NCBI RefSeq assembly: GCF_000010805.1
Contig: NC_012522.1
Location: 5,332,001-5,396,000 of the forward strand
Direction of reading: 5' to 3'
Length of the DNA: 64,000 bases
Origin: Rhodococcus opacus B4
Lineage (GTDB): Bacteria; Actinomycetota; Actinomycetes; Mycobacteriales; Mycobacteriaceae
Shown: positions 40,344 to 45,050 of the stretch, in pieces
Numbering within the stretch: position 1 is the first letter of the stretch
Layout: every line of letters starts with the position of its first letter
Program-made: the position numbers and the translations under genes
The notes under the pieces: generated by a model
What the model was told of the DNA's origin: nothing
The model's database searches: none
The model's input: only the letters and a program-made list of their open reading frames with translations

Positions 40344-40766
40344 TCAGTCTTCGGTGACCTCGAGGGTGACGTCGATGTTGCCGCGGGTGGCGTTGGAATA
40401 CGGGCACACCTGGTGCGCCTTCTCCGTCAGTTCGAGCGCCTCCGCGCGCGGCAGGTGGGGGAGCGAGACCTCGAGGGTGACCGCGAGACCGAATCCGCCG
40501 CCGTCCGTGGAACCGATCCCGACGCGGGCGCCGACGGCCGAGTCGGCGACGTTCGCCCCGGCCTGACGGGCAACAAGCTGGAGTGCGGAGTGGAAGCAGG
40601 CCGCGTATCCGGCGGCGAACAGCTGCTCGGGGTTGGTGCCGTCGCCGGACCCGCCCATCTCGGTGGGGATGGCGAGGTTCAGGTCGAGCCGGCCGTCCGA
40701 CGTGCGGGCGTGGCCGTTGCGGCCTTCCCCGGTCGCGAGGGCTTCTGCGGTGTAAATGATCTTCAT
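40344..40766 (-). CDS. ohr: Organic hydroperoxide resistance protein Ohr
   Basis: A 140-residue OsmC-fold peroxidase. The redox cysteines are Cys57 in [10 protein letters not shown] and Cys121 in [13 protein letters not shown]; the catalytic Arg and Glu are in the N-terminal half. It reduces organic hydroperoxides, using lipoyl proteins as electron donor in characterised members. It is two nucleotides downstream of ohrR on the same strand, forming a compact ohrR-ohr operon. Confidence 0.96.
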
Positions 40767-40768
40767 GG

Positions 40769-41221
40769 TTACTTCTCTCCTGTAGGGGTGTCGAAACTGT
40801 GGAGCGATTCGGTGAGTCGCGACAGGGTGTCGCGCAGGGCGACGAGTTCGTCGACGGCCATTCCCGTCGAGCGGGCGAGTTCGGTGGGGATGCCCTCCGC
40901 GGCGGCGCGGAGGCTCGCGCCCTTCTCGGTGAGGTGGATTCCGACCCGGCGTTCGTCCGCCGAGTCGCGCCGGCGTTCGACCAGGCCCAGCGCGTCGAGC
41001 CGCTTGAGCAGTGGGGACAGGGTGCCGGTGTCGAGATCGAGGGCTTCGCAGATCTCACGCACCCCGCGACCGTCCTGTTCCCAGAGCACCAGCAGCACGA
41101 GGTACTGCGGGTAGGTCACTCCCAGCGAGTCGAGCATCGACCGGTATCTCGCCGTCATCGCCCGGGACGCCGAGTACAGCGCGAAGCACACCTGGCGGTC
41201 GAGGGCGAGGTTGTCGGTCAC
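40769..41221 (-). CDS. ohrR: MarR-family organic peroxide sensor OhrR
   Basis: 150 residues from GTG 41221 ([20 protein letters not shown]). Cys12 in [10 protein letters not shown] is the conserved peroxide-sensing cysteine. The winged helix runs from [18 protein letters not shown] to [17 protein letters not shown]. Oxidation of the cysteine releases DNA and induces ohr. A GTG at 41254 would extend the protein, but it lies inside the probable operator, so the shorter start is preferred. Confidence 0.93.
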
Positions 41222-41229
41222 CCTTGAAT

Positions 41230-41258
41230 GGTTGCACACAACTAGATTGTGCACAACC
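41230..41258. promoter_or_regulatory. OhrR operator
   Basis: Two half elements, GGTTGCACACAA (41230-41241) and TTGTGCACAACC (41247-41258), form an imperfect 29-bp palindrome (10 of 12 pairs). The right one contains the perfect palindrome TTGTGCACAA. It lies 9-37 bp before the ohrR start, where an autorepressor would act. Confidence 0.7.
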
Positions 41259-41300
41259 TAGAAGGCGTTGGCGGTGATTGGCCTTACACTGTTGGCCAGT

Positions 41301-41386
41301 GACACGGGGTGCTGCCCGGCGAAGATCCGGGCGGCTGAGAAGACACCCGTCGAACCTGAACTGGGTAATGCCGGCGAAGGGATGTC
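41301..41386 (+). ncRNA. TPP riboswitch (THI element)
   Basis: All conserved blocks occur in order: GGGGTGC (41306-41312), GCTGAGA (41334-41340), ACCC (41345-41348), GAACCTGA (41352-41359), CTGGGTAATGCCGGCG (41361-41376) and AAGGGA (41377-41382). GACA at 41301 and TGTC at 41383-41386 can form P1. The aptamer binds thiamine pyrophosphate. It ends 62 nt before the SDR start codon, room for an expression platform controlling ribosome access or termination. It is therefore expected to switch off the three downstream genes when TPP is plentiful. Confidence 0.96.
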
Positions 41387-41448
41387 GCGGAGACGGCCGT
41401 ATGCGCTCATCCGATGTCTCGTCGCCGACCGAACGGAAGGTGACAGCA

Positions 41449-42213
41449 ATGCAGCTCGACAAGCAGATCGTCCTGGTGACCGGCGGTGGCCGGGGTCTCG
41501 GTTCCGCCATCGTGCGTTCGTTCGCGGCGCAGCACGCGCGGGTGGTCGTGAACTACCGCAACAGCCGGGATGCGGCGGAGGAACTCGCGGCATCCCTGGG
41601 CGCGGACCGCGCGGTCGCGCTACAAGCCGACGTCACCGACGCCGCGCAGGTGGCAGCGCTGTTCGCCGCCGCGGAAGAGCACTTCGGATCGCCGGTGACC
41701 ACCGTGATCAACAACGCCCTCGCCGACTTCTCCTTCAACGGCGACGCACGCGACAAGGCGGACGTCATCACGTGGGAGGCATTCGACTCGCAACTGCGCG
41801 GCAGCGTGCAGGCGACCCTGAACACCACGCAGGCCGCGTTGCCGGGCATGCGCGCGCTCGGGTTCGGCCGCATCGTGAACATCGGCACCAACCTGTTCCA
41901 GAACCCCGTCGTCCCGTACCACGACTACACCGCCGCCAAGGCCGCCGCGTTGTCGCTGACCCGTACCCTCGCCGCCGACCTCGGGCCCGACGGCATCACC
42001 GTCAACATGGTCTCGGGCGGACTGCTCCGCACCACCGACGCGAGCGCCGCCACCCCCGACGAGGTGTTCGACCTCATCGCCGCGAGCACTCCACTGCAGC
42101 GGGTCACCACCCCGGACGAGTTCGCGGACGCAGTGCTGTTCTTCGCGTCGCCGTGGTCGCGTTCGGTGACCGGCCAGAACCTCGTCGTCGACGGCGGACT
42201 GGTCAAGGACTGA
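41449..42213 (+). CDS. TPP-riboswitch-controlled SDR oxidoreductase
   Basis: 254 residues from ATG 41449, preceded by GGAAGG. A classical FabG-like SDR: TGGGRGLGSAIVRSF, catalytic Ser position within GRIVNIGTNLF (Thr/Gly rather than the usual Ser-Ser), YTAAK as YxxxK, and the C-terminal VTGQNLVVDGGL. NNALADF replaces NNAG. It is first gene after the TPP riboswitch and ends one base before the monooxygenase ATG. No known thiamine-pathway SDR step fits, so a role in oxidising or reducing a thiamine precursor or breakdown product is inferred from regulation only. Confidence 0.9.
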   Translation: MQLDKQIVLVTGGGRGLGSAIVRSFAAQHARVVVNYRNSRDAAEELAASLGADRAVALQADVTDAAQVAALFAAAEEHFGSPVTTVINNALADFSFNGDARDKADVITWEAFDSQLRGSVQATLNTTQAALPGMRALGFGRIVNIGTNLFQNPVVPYHDYTAAKAAALSLTRTLAADLGPDGITVNMVSGGLLRTTDASAATPDEVFDLIAASTPLQRVTTPDEFADAVLFFASPWSRSVTGQNLVVDGGLVKD

Positions 42214-42214
42214 C

Positions 42215-43510
42215 ATGAGCGACGGCAGGCAACTGCATTTCAACGCATTCCTGTACGGCTGCGGGCACCACGGCGCCGCGTGGCGGCACCCCGCCTCACA
42301 GGTGGAGCGGCTCGGCGACATCGCCTACTACGAGGAACTCGCGCAGACCGCGGAGCGGGGTTGTCTCGACGCGGTGTTCTTCGCCGACGGGCACTCGGTG
42401 CGCGACCCCGCGTCCGGGGGCATGTGGTTCCTCGAACCGCTCACCGCGCTGTCGGCGATGGCGCGGGCGACCGAGCGGGTCGGACTCGTGACGACCGTGT
42501 CCACCACGTTCTACACCCCGTTCCACGCCGCGCGGATGCTGGCGTCGCTCGACCACATCAGCGGCGGCCGCGTCGGCTGGAACGTGGTGACGTCGATGTT
42601 CGACGCCGAGGCGCGCAATCACGGTCTCGAGGAGATGCCGCCGCACGACGACCGCTACTCGCGCGCCGCCGAGTTCGTCGACGTGGCGCTCGCGCTGTGG
42701 GATTCGTGGGAGCCCGACGCGCTCGTGCTCGACCGGGACGGCATCTTCGCGGATCCGGCCAAGGTGCATCCGATCGCGCACCGGGGCAAGCACTTCCTCG
42801 TCGACGGTCCGCTGACCGTGCCGCACTCGCCGCAGGGGCGTCCGGTGCTGTTCCAGGCGGGCGCGTCCGATCAGGGCCGCGACCTGGCCGCCCGGTGCGC
42901 CGAGGGCATCTATGCCGTCGCCTACGACCTCACGGCCGCGCAGAGCTACTACGGCGACGTGAAGCGGCGCATCCGCGCTGCGGGCCGCGACGCCGACGCG
43001 GTGACCGTGATGCCCGGTCTCGTCACCTACGTGGGCTCGACCACCGAGGAGGCGCACCGGAAGAAGGCGGAACTCGACGCGCTCCTTCCGGTCGAACAGT
43101 CGCTGGCGCAATTGTCGATGTTCGTCCAGCAGGACTGCAGCGCATGGGAACTGGACGCACCCGTCCCCGCGCTGCCGCCGCTGTCGGAGTTCACCGGACC
43201 GCAGGGGCGGTACGACACGATTCTGCGGATCATCGAGAAGGACCGTCCCACCGTGCGGTCGCTGCTGGGCACGCTGGCGGCAGGCGGCGGGCACTGCACC
43301 ATGATCGGCACACCGGAATCGATCGCCGACGAGATCGAGGTGTGGTTCCGCAGCGGCGGCGCCGACGGCTTCAACCTGATGCCCCCGCTCTACCCGAATG
43401 GGCTCGCCGACTTCGTCGACGAGGTCATTCCCGTCCTGCAGAAGCGGGGGCTGTTCCGCGCGGAGTATGAGACGGCGACCCTGCGCGACCATCTCCGGGG
43501 TCGCCGATAG
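42215..43510 (+). CDS. LLM-class flavin-dependent monooxygenase (NtaA/SnaA/DszA type)
   Basis: A 431-residue luciferase-like TIM-barrel enzyme. The N-terminal motif FNAFLYGCGHHGAAWRHP and AERGCLDAVFFADGHSV, then the FMN-binding ISGGRVGWNVVTS and PVLFQAGASDQGRDLAA, place it in the NtaA/SnaA/SoxA/DszA branch. This branch oxidises compounds such as nitrilotriacetate, sulfones or pteridine-like rings with reduced FMN supplied by a separate reductase. It is tightly linked to the SDR and lies under the TPP riboswitch. A thiazole- or pyrimidine-containing substrate is a reasonable guess but unproven. Confidence 0.92.
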   Translation: MSDGRQLHFNAFLYGCGHHGAAWRHPASQVERLGDIAYYEELAQTAERGCLDAVFFADGHSVRDPASGGMWFLEPLTALSAMARATERVGLVTTVSTTFYTPFHAARMLASLDHISGGRVGWNVVTSMFDAEARNHGLEEMPPHDDRYSRAAEFVDVALALWDSWEPDALVLDRDGIFADPAKVHPIAHRGKHFLVDGPLTVPHSPQGRPVLFQAGASDQGRDLAARCAEGIYAVAYDLTAAQSYYGDVKRRIRAAGRDADAVTVMPGLVTYVGSTTEEAHRKKAELDALLPVEQSLAQLSMFVQQDCSAWELDAPVPALPPLSEFTGPQGRYDTILRIIEKDRPTVRSLLGTLAAGGGHCTMIGTPESIADEIEVWFRSGGADGFNLMPPLYPNGLADFVDEVIPVLQKRGLFRAEYETATLRDHLRGRR

Positions 43511-43589
43511 TTGCCACCACAAAGAACACAACCTTCTCTAAGTACGCAACAGTGACTGTGAGCGTCCCTCCCCCCGACACTGGCTGTTA

Positions 43590-43606
43590 TCGCGATCACA
43601 TCGCGA
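43590..43606. promoter_or_regulatory. Palindrome upstream of CitMHS gene
   Basis: TCGCGAT-CAC-ATCGCGA gives perfect 7-nt arms 25 nt before the transporter start, in the only sizeable gap of the operon (121 nt). It could be a secondary operator or a hairpin tuning transporter expression. Confidence 0.4.
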
Positions 43607-43631
43607 CGCAAAGCTCGGACGAGGAGTGGCA

Positions 43632-45050
43632 ATGCTGGTAGCGCTCGGCTTTCTGATGGTGGCCGTGTTCATGTTCTTGATCATGTCCAAACGGGCCACT
43701 CCCGTGGTCGGGCTGATCGCCGTCCCGGTCGCATTCGGCATCGCGGCCGGGGCAGGCCTCGGCATCGGCGACATGATCACCGACGGGATCAAATCGCTGG
43801 CCCCGACGGCCGCGCTGCTGTTCTTCGCGATCATCTTCTTCGGGATCATGATCGACGTCGGCCTGTTCGATCCGCTGGTGAAACTGATCCTCCGGCTCGT
43901 CCGCAACGACCCCATGCGGCTCGTCGTGGGCACCGCGGTGCTCGCGATGGTGGTGTCGCTGGACGGTGACGGATCCACGACGTTCATCATCGTCACGTCC
44001 GCGCTGCTGCCGCTGTACATGAAGCTGAAAGTCAGCCCGGTCGTTCTCACGGTGGTCGCAGGCCTGGCGAACGGCGCGATGAACATCGTCCCGTGGGGCG
44101 GGCCGACGGTCCGGGCCGCCTCGGCGCTCGGCATCTCGCCGTCGGACGTCTTCGTCCCGATGATCCCGTCGCTGGTGGTCGGACTCGTCGTCGTGCTGCT
44201 GTTCGCCGTGCAGCTCGGTTACAGCGAACGCCGCCGCATCGGCACACTCGAACTCACCGACGAGCGCCTCCTCGTCTCCGCCGGCGCGAGCCTTCGCCGG
44301 GCCGGGACCGGATCCGGCGGCAACGGTGACGCACCCCGCACGGGTGGCGGTTCCGGCGACGCCGGTTCGGACGACGGCGGTTCCGACGACGAGCGGGGCT
44401 TCGTCGACGGCCTCGACCCCGAGCGGCCCACGCTGCGACCGAAGCTGTTGTGGTTCAACATGCTCGTGACCGTGGCACTGCTCGTCGTGCTCGTGATGGA
44501 CGTGCTGCCGATTCCGGTGCTGTTCATGGTGGCCGCATCCATCGCGCTGACCGTGAACTTCCCGCGGGTCAAGGAACAGCAGGAAGCGATCACCCGGCAC
44601 TCGTCGAGCATCGTCTCCGTCGTCGCGATGGTGTTCGCCGCGGCCGTGCTCACCGGCGTGTTCCAGGGCACCGGAATGGTCGAGGCGATGGCGCAGTGGC
44701 TGCTCGAGGTCATCCCGTCCGCGCTCGGACCGCACTTGGCCGTCATCACCGGCATTCTGAGCCTGCCGTTCACGTTCTTCATGAGCAACGACGCCTTCTA
44801 CTTCGGCGTCATGCCGGTGCTCGCCGAGACGGCGTCCACGTACGGCATCGAGCCGGTCGAGATGGCCCGCGCGTCCATCACCGGCCAGACGTTCCACATG
44901 CAGAGCCCCCTCGTCCCGGCCATCCTGCTGCTCGTCACCCTCGCGGGTGTCCCGCTGGCGGACCACCACAAGAAGGTGCTGTGGCGCGCGGCGCTGGTGT
45001 CGCTGTCGATGCTGGTGGTCGGCGTGGTCCTGGGGCAGATCCCCTGGTGA
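43632..45050 (+). CDS. CitMHS-family transporter
   Basis: 472 residues from ATG 43632 with AGGAG six nt upstream. About twelve helices surround a charged Gly/Asp-rich cytoplasmic loop (about 225-265). CitMHS features include FFAIIFFGIMIDVGLFDPLV, the VSLDGDGSTTFII motif of the binding region and PFTFFMSNDAFYFGVMPVL. Characterised members import divalent-metal-citrate complexes with protons. Its position behind a TPP riboswitch suggests that the physiological cargo may be a thiamine-related anion or its metal complex, which would be new for the family. Confidence 0.92.
   Translation: MLVALGFLMVAVFMFLIMSKRATPVVGLIAVPVAFGIAAGAGLGIGDMITDGIKSLAPTAALLFFAIIFFGIMIDVGLFDPLVKLILRLVRNDPMRLVVGTAVLAMVVSLDGDGSTTFIIVTSALLPLYMKLKVSPVVLTVVAGLANGAMNIVPWGGPTVRAASALGISPSDVFVPMIPSLVVGLVVVLLFAVQLGYSERRRIGTLELTDERLLVSAGASLRRAGTGSGGNGDAPRTGGGSGDAGSDDGGSDDERGFVDGLDPERPTLRPKLLWFNMLVTVALLVVLVMDVLPIPVLFMVAASIALTVNFPRVKEQQEAITRHSSSIVSVVAMVFAAAVLTGVFQGTGMVEAMAQWLLEVIPSALGPHLAVITGILSLPFTFFMSNDAFYFGVMPVLAETASTYGIEPVEMARASITGQTFHMQSPLVPAILLLVTLAGVPLADHHKKVLWRAALVSLSMLVVGVVLGQIPW

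Follow-up and report, generated by a model that had tools for sequence, protein, structure and literature searches.

A 64,000-nucleotide stretch of the Rhodococcus opacus B4 genome (NC_012522.1, positions 5,332,001 to 5,396,000; hereafter the window) raises the question of what a thiamine pyrophosphate (TPP) riboswitch controls when the genes that follow it encode a short-chain dehydrogenase/reductase (SDR) and a flavin mononucleotide (FMN)-dependent luciferase-like monooxygenase (LLM), neither with an assigned role in thiamine metabolism. A third gene further downstream encodes a CitMHS-family transporter, and the original prediction for this locus joined all three genes into an alternative thiamine salvage cluster. 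Judged by sequence comparison across bacteria, the riboswitch and the SDR gene are a real, widespread unit, and the two enzyme genes are found side by side in numerous bacteria of soil and sea. We propose with moderate confidence that riboswitch, SDR and LLM form a TPP-repressed module for the salvage of compounds derived from thiamine, with the pyrimidine half of the vitamin as the most likely target, and that CitMHS stands outside this module.

The locus opens, as originally predicted, with a complete THI element: the curated Rfam model RF00059 matches over its full length with 64.0 bits (E 3.1e-10) against a gathering score of 54.3, and this is the single TPP riboswitch above the Rfam cut-off in the window (Table 1). 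The aptamer is also matched by R1, a riboswitch model built from 26 sequences, one of which is this aptamer itself and 22 of which come from the 80 loci described below. The whole R. opacus B4 genome (8.83 Mb in 6 contigs) carries four TPP riboswitches, the remaining three preceding tenA (PF03070), thiC, and thiO with thiS, the last two genes being read by eye. The SDR gene starts 49 nt past the riboswitch end and scores 466 bits against NF006393 (cut-off 292), the LLM gene follows after 1 bp with 552 bits against TIGR03860 (cut-off 279.7), and the CitMHS gene, with 489 bits against TIGR00784 (cut-off 259.7), starts 115 bp past the LLM stop codon. All three predicted open reading frames are present, but the tight packing that had been described for them holds for SDR and LLM and not for the transporter gene.

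Table 1. Features of the riboswitch locus and other elements in the window
Feature	Position in window	Strand	Family or basis
TPP riboswitch aptamer (THI element)	41295-41399	+	RF00059, model 1-105 of 105
Predicted expression platform: anti-Shine-Dalgarno GTCGCC and Shine-Dalgarno-like GGAAGGTGA ahead of ATG	41400-41448	+	folding
SDR gene, 254 aa	41449-42213	+	NF006393 (3-oxoacyl-ACP reductase by family), PF13561
LLM gene, 431 aa, NtaA/DmoA-family (NtaA/YtnJ-type) FMN-dependent monooxygenase	42215-43510	+	TIGR03860
LLM-CitMHS gap with conserved upstream region and CRP/GlxR-like palindrome TGTTATCGCGATCACA	43511-43625	+	
CitMHS transporter gene, 474 aa	43626-45050	+	TIGR00784
ohrR-ohr divergent pair (organic hydroperoxide resistance)	40344-41254	-	
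Palindrome TTGCACACAACTAGATTGTGCACAA, probable OhrR operator	about 41230-41256		
ASdes TB small RNA match, 72.3 bits	17540-17607	+	RF01781

A search of GTDB species genomes with the SDR matched at least 596 stretches, at least 552 of which code for a relative. Our locus set is made up of the 80 best of these, a sample that is ranked by similarity and not random. Model R1 finds a riboswitch upstream of the SDR gene in 49 of the 80 loci, and on 22 of the 80 scanned with the curated Rfam model the riboswitch reaches or exceeds the gathering score in 17. An LLM gene adjoins the SDR gene in 39 loci, and 37 of these carry the riboswitch; the rest of the set consists of 12 loci with the riboswitch only, 2 with LLM only and 29 with neither, mostly from Stenotrophomonas, Luteimonas and relatives. 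Mapped onto the SDR tree, the presence of the riboswitch requires 7 changes, compared with a mean of 24.4 when labels are shuffled. One locus from Sporosarcina (L026), still counted among the 80, was set aside as evidence for Bacillota, since its 66% G+C content and the position of its SDR in an otherwise actinobacterial group make contamination likely.

The same arrangement recurs within the genus, for which 28 congeneric genomes were compared, R. opacus B4 included. The SDR gene is present in 22 of them, the LLM gene (at least 74% identity) is adjacent in the same 22, and a riboswitch lies directly upstream in 21. Together with the 17 of 22 loci from the Rfam scan, this places the linkage well above chance. 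The original prediction had counted a consistent absence of the riboswitch from homologous clusters among the results that would speak against it; neither the genus nor the wider set shows this for the SDR-LLM part. In the one genus locus that departs from the pattern (L106, G014:C1:3129500-3133500, minus strand), the SDR-LLM pair is orthologous and the aptamer is missing; the locus has kept its flank with ohr-ohrR, the palindrome upstream and both the anti-Shine-Dalgarno and the Shine-Dalgarno stretch. From its sequence, genome G014 is a natural riboswitch loss and a natural control for the switch.

The connection to thiamine comes from the genes that share the riboswitch. The distance from riboswitch to SDR gene ranges from an overlap of 8 nt to 170 nt in 45 loci, and in another four (L015, L033, L044 and L063) thi genes intervene in the order riboswitch-thiM-thiE(-thiD)-SDR. 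They encode hydroxyethylthiazole kinase and thiamine phosphate synthase, joined in all but L044 by the kinase for hydroxymethylpyrimidine (HMP) phosphate; thiM and thiE of L044 and thiD of L063 were identified by profile searches, the others being assigned from homology clusters and by eye from sequence starts. Two further loci, L022 and L028, have thi genes behind a second, divergent riboswitch. Such a divergent riboswitch is found in 14 proteobacterial loci, and in 13 of them it is followed by a gene of one homology cluster, the fourteenth (L073) running into a contig edge. The two of these 13 cluster members that were tested against profiles are both sodium:solute symporter family (SSF) transporters, and excerpts of PMC4260697 present the riboswitch-linked SSF proteins (SSSP/ThiV) as proposed carriers of thiamine, HMP or aminopyrimidine. 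The thi operons in four loci and the transporter genes at 13 of 14 divergent riboswitches therefore make a role of the pair in thiamine salvage very probable. The salvage cluster originally predicted finds comparative support in SDR and LLM, while its assignment of CitMHS as the importer does not. In a Nocardiopsis locus, a gene for a major facilitator superfamily metabolite:H+ symporter (L078:4153-5439, minus strand) stands divergent to the SDR gene, at the place of the proteobacterial SSF gene, and no second riboswitch was found there.

We examined the thiamine gene content of 50 module-bearing genomes (L024 left out). TenA, a pyrimidine-salvage enzyme, is encoded in 36 of these, comprising 34 of the 39 that carry LLM and 2 of the 11 that lack it (Fisher p 3.5e-5, uncorrected for kinship). 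In the 12 genomes that have no adjacent LLM gene, some of them drafts, the remaining sequence gave no LLM of more than 47% identity. Full-length thiC is present in 27 genomes, plus one fragment, and missing from 23. Matches to the HMP kinase family occur in all 50 and strong thiG matches in 45, including 18 of the 23 genomes without full-length thiC; thiC without thiG was seen in none of the 50. The loss of thiC was considered as proof of pyrimidine salvage and dropped, as it is enriched neither with the pair in the genus nor with LLM. From the evidence as a whole we infer that pyrimidine salvage is favoured, and offer the enzyme chemistry below as a hypothesis.

The leader is predicted to act as a translational OFF switch. 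In predicted folds of the leader in the window, the mean unpaired probability of the Shine-Dalgarno bases falls from 0.60 with the aptamer free to 0.22 with the aptamer forced, when they are predicted to be mostly paired with GTCGCC. Predictions for three other leaders give the same contrast (0.47 to 0.24 in L006, 0.54 to 0.23 in L007 and 0.42 to 0.27 in L008), and the leaders differ in other lineages. At low TPP, pairing between the 3' side of the aptamer and the anti-Shine-Dalgarno stretch would leave the ribosome site of the SDR gene open; when TPP is bound, the freed GTCGCC would pair with GGTGAC and translation would stop.

For the enzymes, the closest solved structures offer a guide. Those nearest to LLM are YtnJ/MoxC (330 bits with a single sequence, 408 bits with a profile), followed by nitrilotriacetate monooxygenase and DszA, with riboflavin lyase more distant. 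LLM relatives of this kind cleave C-N or C-S bonds oxidatively. By analogy, LLM, with reduced FMN supplied by an unlinked reductase, might oxidise the carbon beside the nitrogen or sulfur of a substituted aminomethyl- or thiomethyl-pyrimidine, yielding an aldehyde, or an amine usable by TenA. The SDR would then act on the aldehyde as a reductase, and ThiD could phosphorylate the resulting alcohol, HMP for example. Tyr160, Lys164 and Thr147 of the SDR are invariant in all 32 aligned rows, those without a riboswitch included, with Thr147 occupying the place, 13 residues before Tyr, of the Ser in the classical Ser-Tyr-Lys catalytic set. Taken as a whole, and put forward as a tentative possibility, this would be an uncharacterised O2-dependent route of B1 salvage: the TPP-repressed monooxygenase would cut a substituted pyrimidine vitamer, the SDR would turn the aldehyde into HMP, and actinobacteria and proteobacteria without thiC could in this way live on damaged thiamine that resists hydrolases.

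Several observations weigh against a module for pyrimidine salvage. Twelve loci combine riboswitch and SDR without LLM, and 29 close SDRs have neither; the pair itself occurs without an aptamer in G014 and without an upstream riboswitch in L083, which has a divergent one only, while the contig of L034 has just 489 bp upstream. The SDR falls in a family named FabG-like. The R. opacus B4 genome already has thiC and tenA, and the pair does not track thiC loss, since within the genus thiC is missing from 7 of the 22 genomes that carry the pair and from 3 of the 6 that do not; a test of LLM against thiC gives p 0.73. The link of LLM with TenA, made among related genomes, reduces on the tree to only four independent pairs (sign test p 0.125). 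Excerpts of PMC10881298 describe thiazole auxotrophy as generally rare, so the retention of thiG says little. In addition, thiM, the thiazole kinase gene, shares the operons described above.

Because thiM lies in these operons, the thiazole half has to be considered. The pair could act on it, or could repair, detoxify or break down a thiamine analogue that is toxic or oxidised. The position of thiM next to the SDR gene in several operons fits this explanation, as does the action of many LLM relatives, such as DszA and dimethyl-sulfide monooxygenase, on sulfur compounds. Yet we consider it unlikely: the 18 of 50 genomes that keep thiG without full-length thiC would have thiazole of their own but depend on a supply of pyrimidine, the partner transporter belongs to a type that has been put forward as a pyrimidine carrier, and LLM goes with TenA.

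Quite unlikely, in our judgement, is that the riboswitch controls a reductase for a TPP-linked metabolic branch and that the pair never touches thiamine-derived compounds. The classification of the SDR as a 3-oxoacyl-acyl carrier protein (ACP) reductase agrees with such a role, and 29 of 80 close relatives do without both riboswitch and LLM, but operons shared with thiM, thiE and thiD, and a predicted OFF switch that suits thiamine supply, count against it. The riboswitch context argues for an SDR substrate other than acyl-ACP.

The original prediction had CitMHS import the substrate for the other two proteins. In the window and in 10 more of the 28 congeneric genomes, the transporter gene does come after the pair in the same orientation. 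No convincing terminator was found in the gap before it, and it may be co-transcribed from the riboswitch promoter. A simple promoter and terminator scan was uninformative, with 0 promoters and 1 terminator-like site, inside CitMHS, compared with 1.4 expected in shuffles. However, CitMHS is present in 19 of the 28 genomes and adjoins the pair in just 11; in the other 8 it lies at a different site, and 2 of these have no SDR-LLM pair. Counted over the 22 pair-bearing genomes, it is adjacent in 11, elsewhere in 6 and without a match in 5. Among the 80 SDR loci, tblastn detects it in only 4, all from close Rhodococcus, and flanks of 1.5 kb around the 10 unlinked copies contain no TPP riboswitch. 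CitMHS also has its own upstream region, conserved before 10 of the 11 linked copies with the palindrome at -46 to -49 (L092 lacks the palindrome), and part of this stretch recurs before the unlinked copy L104. The palindrome was scored against a CRP/GlxR-like consensus, matching 8 or 9 of 10 letters in 10 of the 11 linked loci; this match alone is modest, as unlinked copies (10 scored) reach 6 to 8 of 10. On its genus distribution, its own upstream region and the lack of riboswitches near unlinked copies, CitMHS was rejected as part of the module and is probably a neighbour, and joint action of all three genes with CitMHS as importer seems to us very unlikely.

An oxygen-dependent alternative synthesis of HMP without ThiC would suit the 23 of 50 module genomes without full-length thiC, but it is extremely unlikely given that 27 have thiC as well as the module, that two enzymes seem too few for a full synthesis, and that thiC loss is not enriched. 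R. ruber ZM07 is reported as a thiamine auxotroph in excerpts of PMC10269752.

Other features were noted in and around the locus. SDR relatives with 94-99% identity belong to R. koreensis, R. opacus and R. wratislaviensis. Two LLM paralogues in the same genome (G000:C5:5418476-5419762 and 5430253-5431536; 51% and 48% identity) lie beyond the window, at a distance of 43-57 kb from the pair. A palindrome between ohrR and the riboswitch is probably the OhrR operator, and a match to a small RNA family lies elsewhere in the window (Table 1). In Alcaligenes, an FMN riboswitch precedes a riboflavin synthase gene about 1 kb past the LLM gene (L059:9011-9154, plus strand), which may be chance.

The riboswitch and both enzyme families were already known. 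In the open-licence literature searched, we found neither the conserved SDR-LLM unit under a TPP switch nor an assigned function for it, and no work linking a TPP riboswitch with CitMHS or a luciferase-like monooxygenase; the one work that mentions a TPP riboswitch along with a short-chain dehydrogenase is apparently unrelated. A THI-linked oxidoreductase was reportedly named oarX in a 2002 thiamine survey; among the papers listed under that name, none appeared to concern thiamine, and an earlier mention of such a gene is quite possible. Excerpts of another survey (PMC3766115) count biosynthesis and transport genes and name no SDR-LLM pair. Many bacteria are unable to synthesise the pyrimidine moiety of B1 and rely on fragments, and a TPP-switched pair offers a handle on which fragments these are. 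If the proposed salvage module is correct, the B1 cycle would gain an oxidative branch, and two enzyme subfamilies that otherwise have only generic names would acquire functions.

Known TPP riboswitch regulons, which comprise thiC, thiO/S/G, tenA, thiM/E/D and transporters, have the same aptamer, and relatives of the pair share their thiM/thiE/thiD operons; SDR and LLM stand apart in that neither has been assigned a function in thiamine metabolism. The LLM subfamily is common to YtnJ/MoxC, nitrilotriacetate and ethylenediaminetetraacetate monooxygenases, DszA and riboflavin lyase, none of which is known to be under TPP riboswitch control. The ThiV/SSSP symporters may be of one kind with the riboswitch-linked SSF transporters of 13 proteobacterial loci with the SDR; the search made here found none next to the window. 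The closest likeness in purpose is to the TenA/YlmB salvage of formylaminopyrimidine: the pair would likewise provide HMP from damaged thiamine, and LLM and TenA co-occur, but that pathway employs hydrolases, in contrast to the oxygen-dependent monooxygenase and reductase here.

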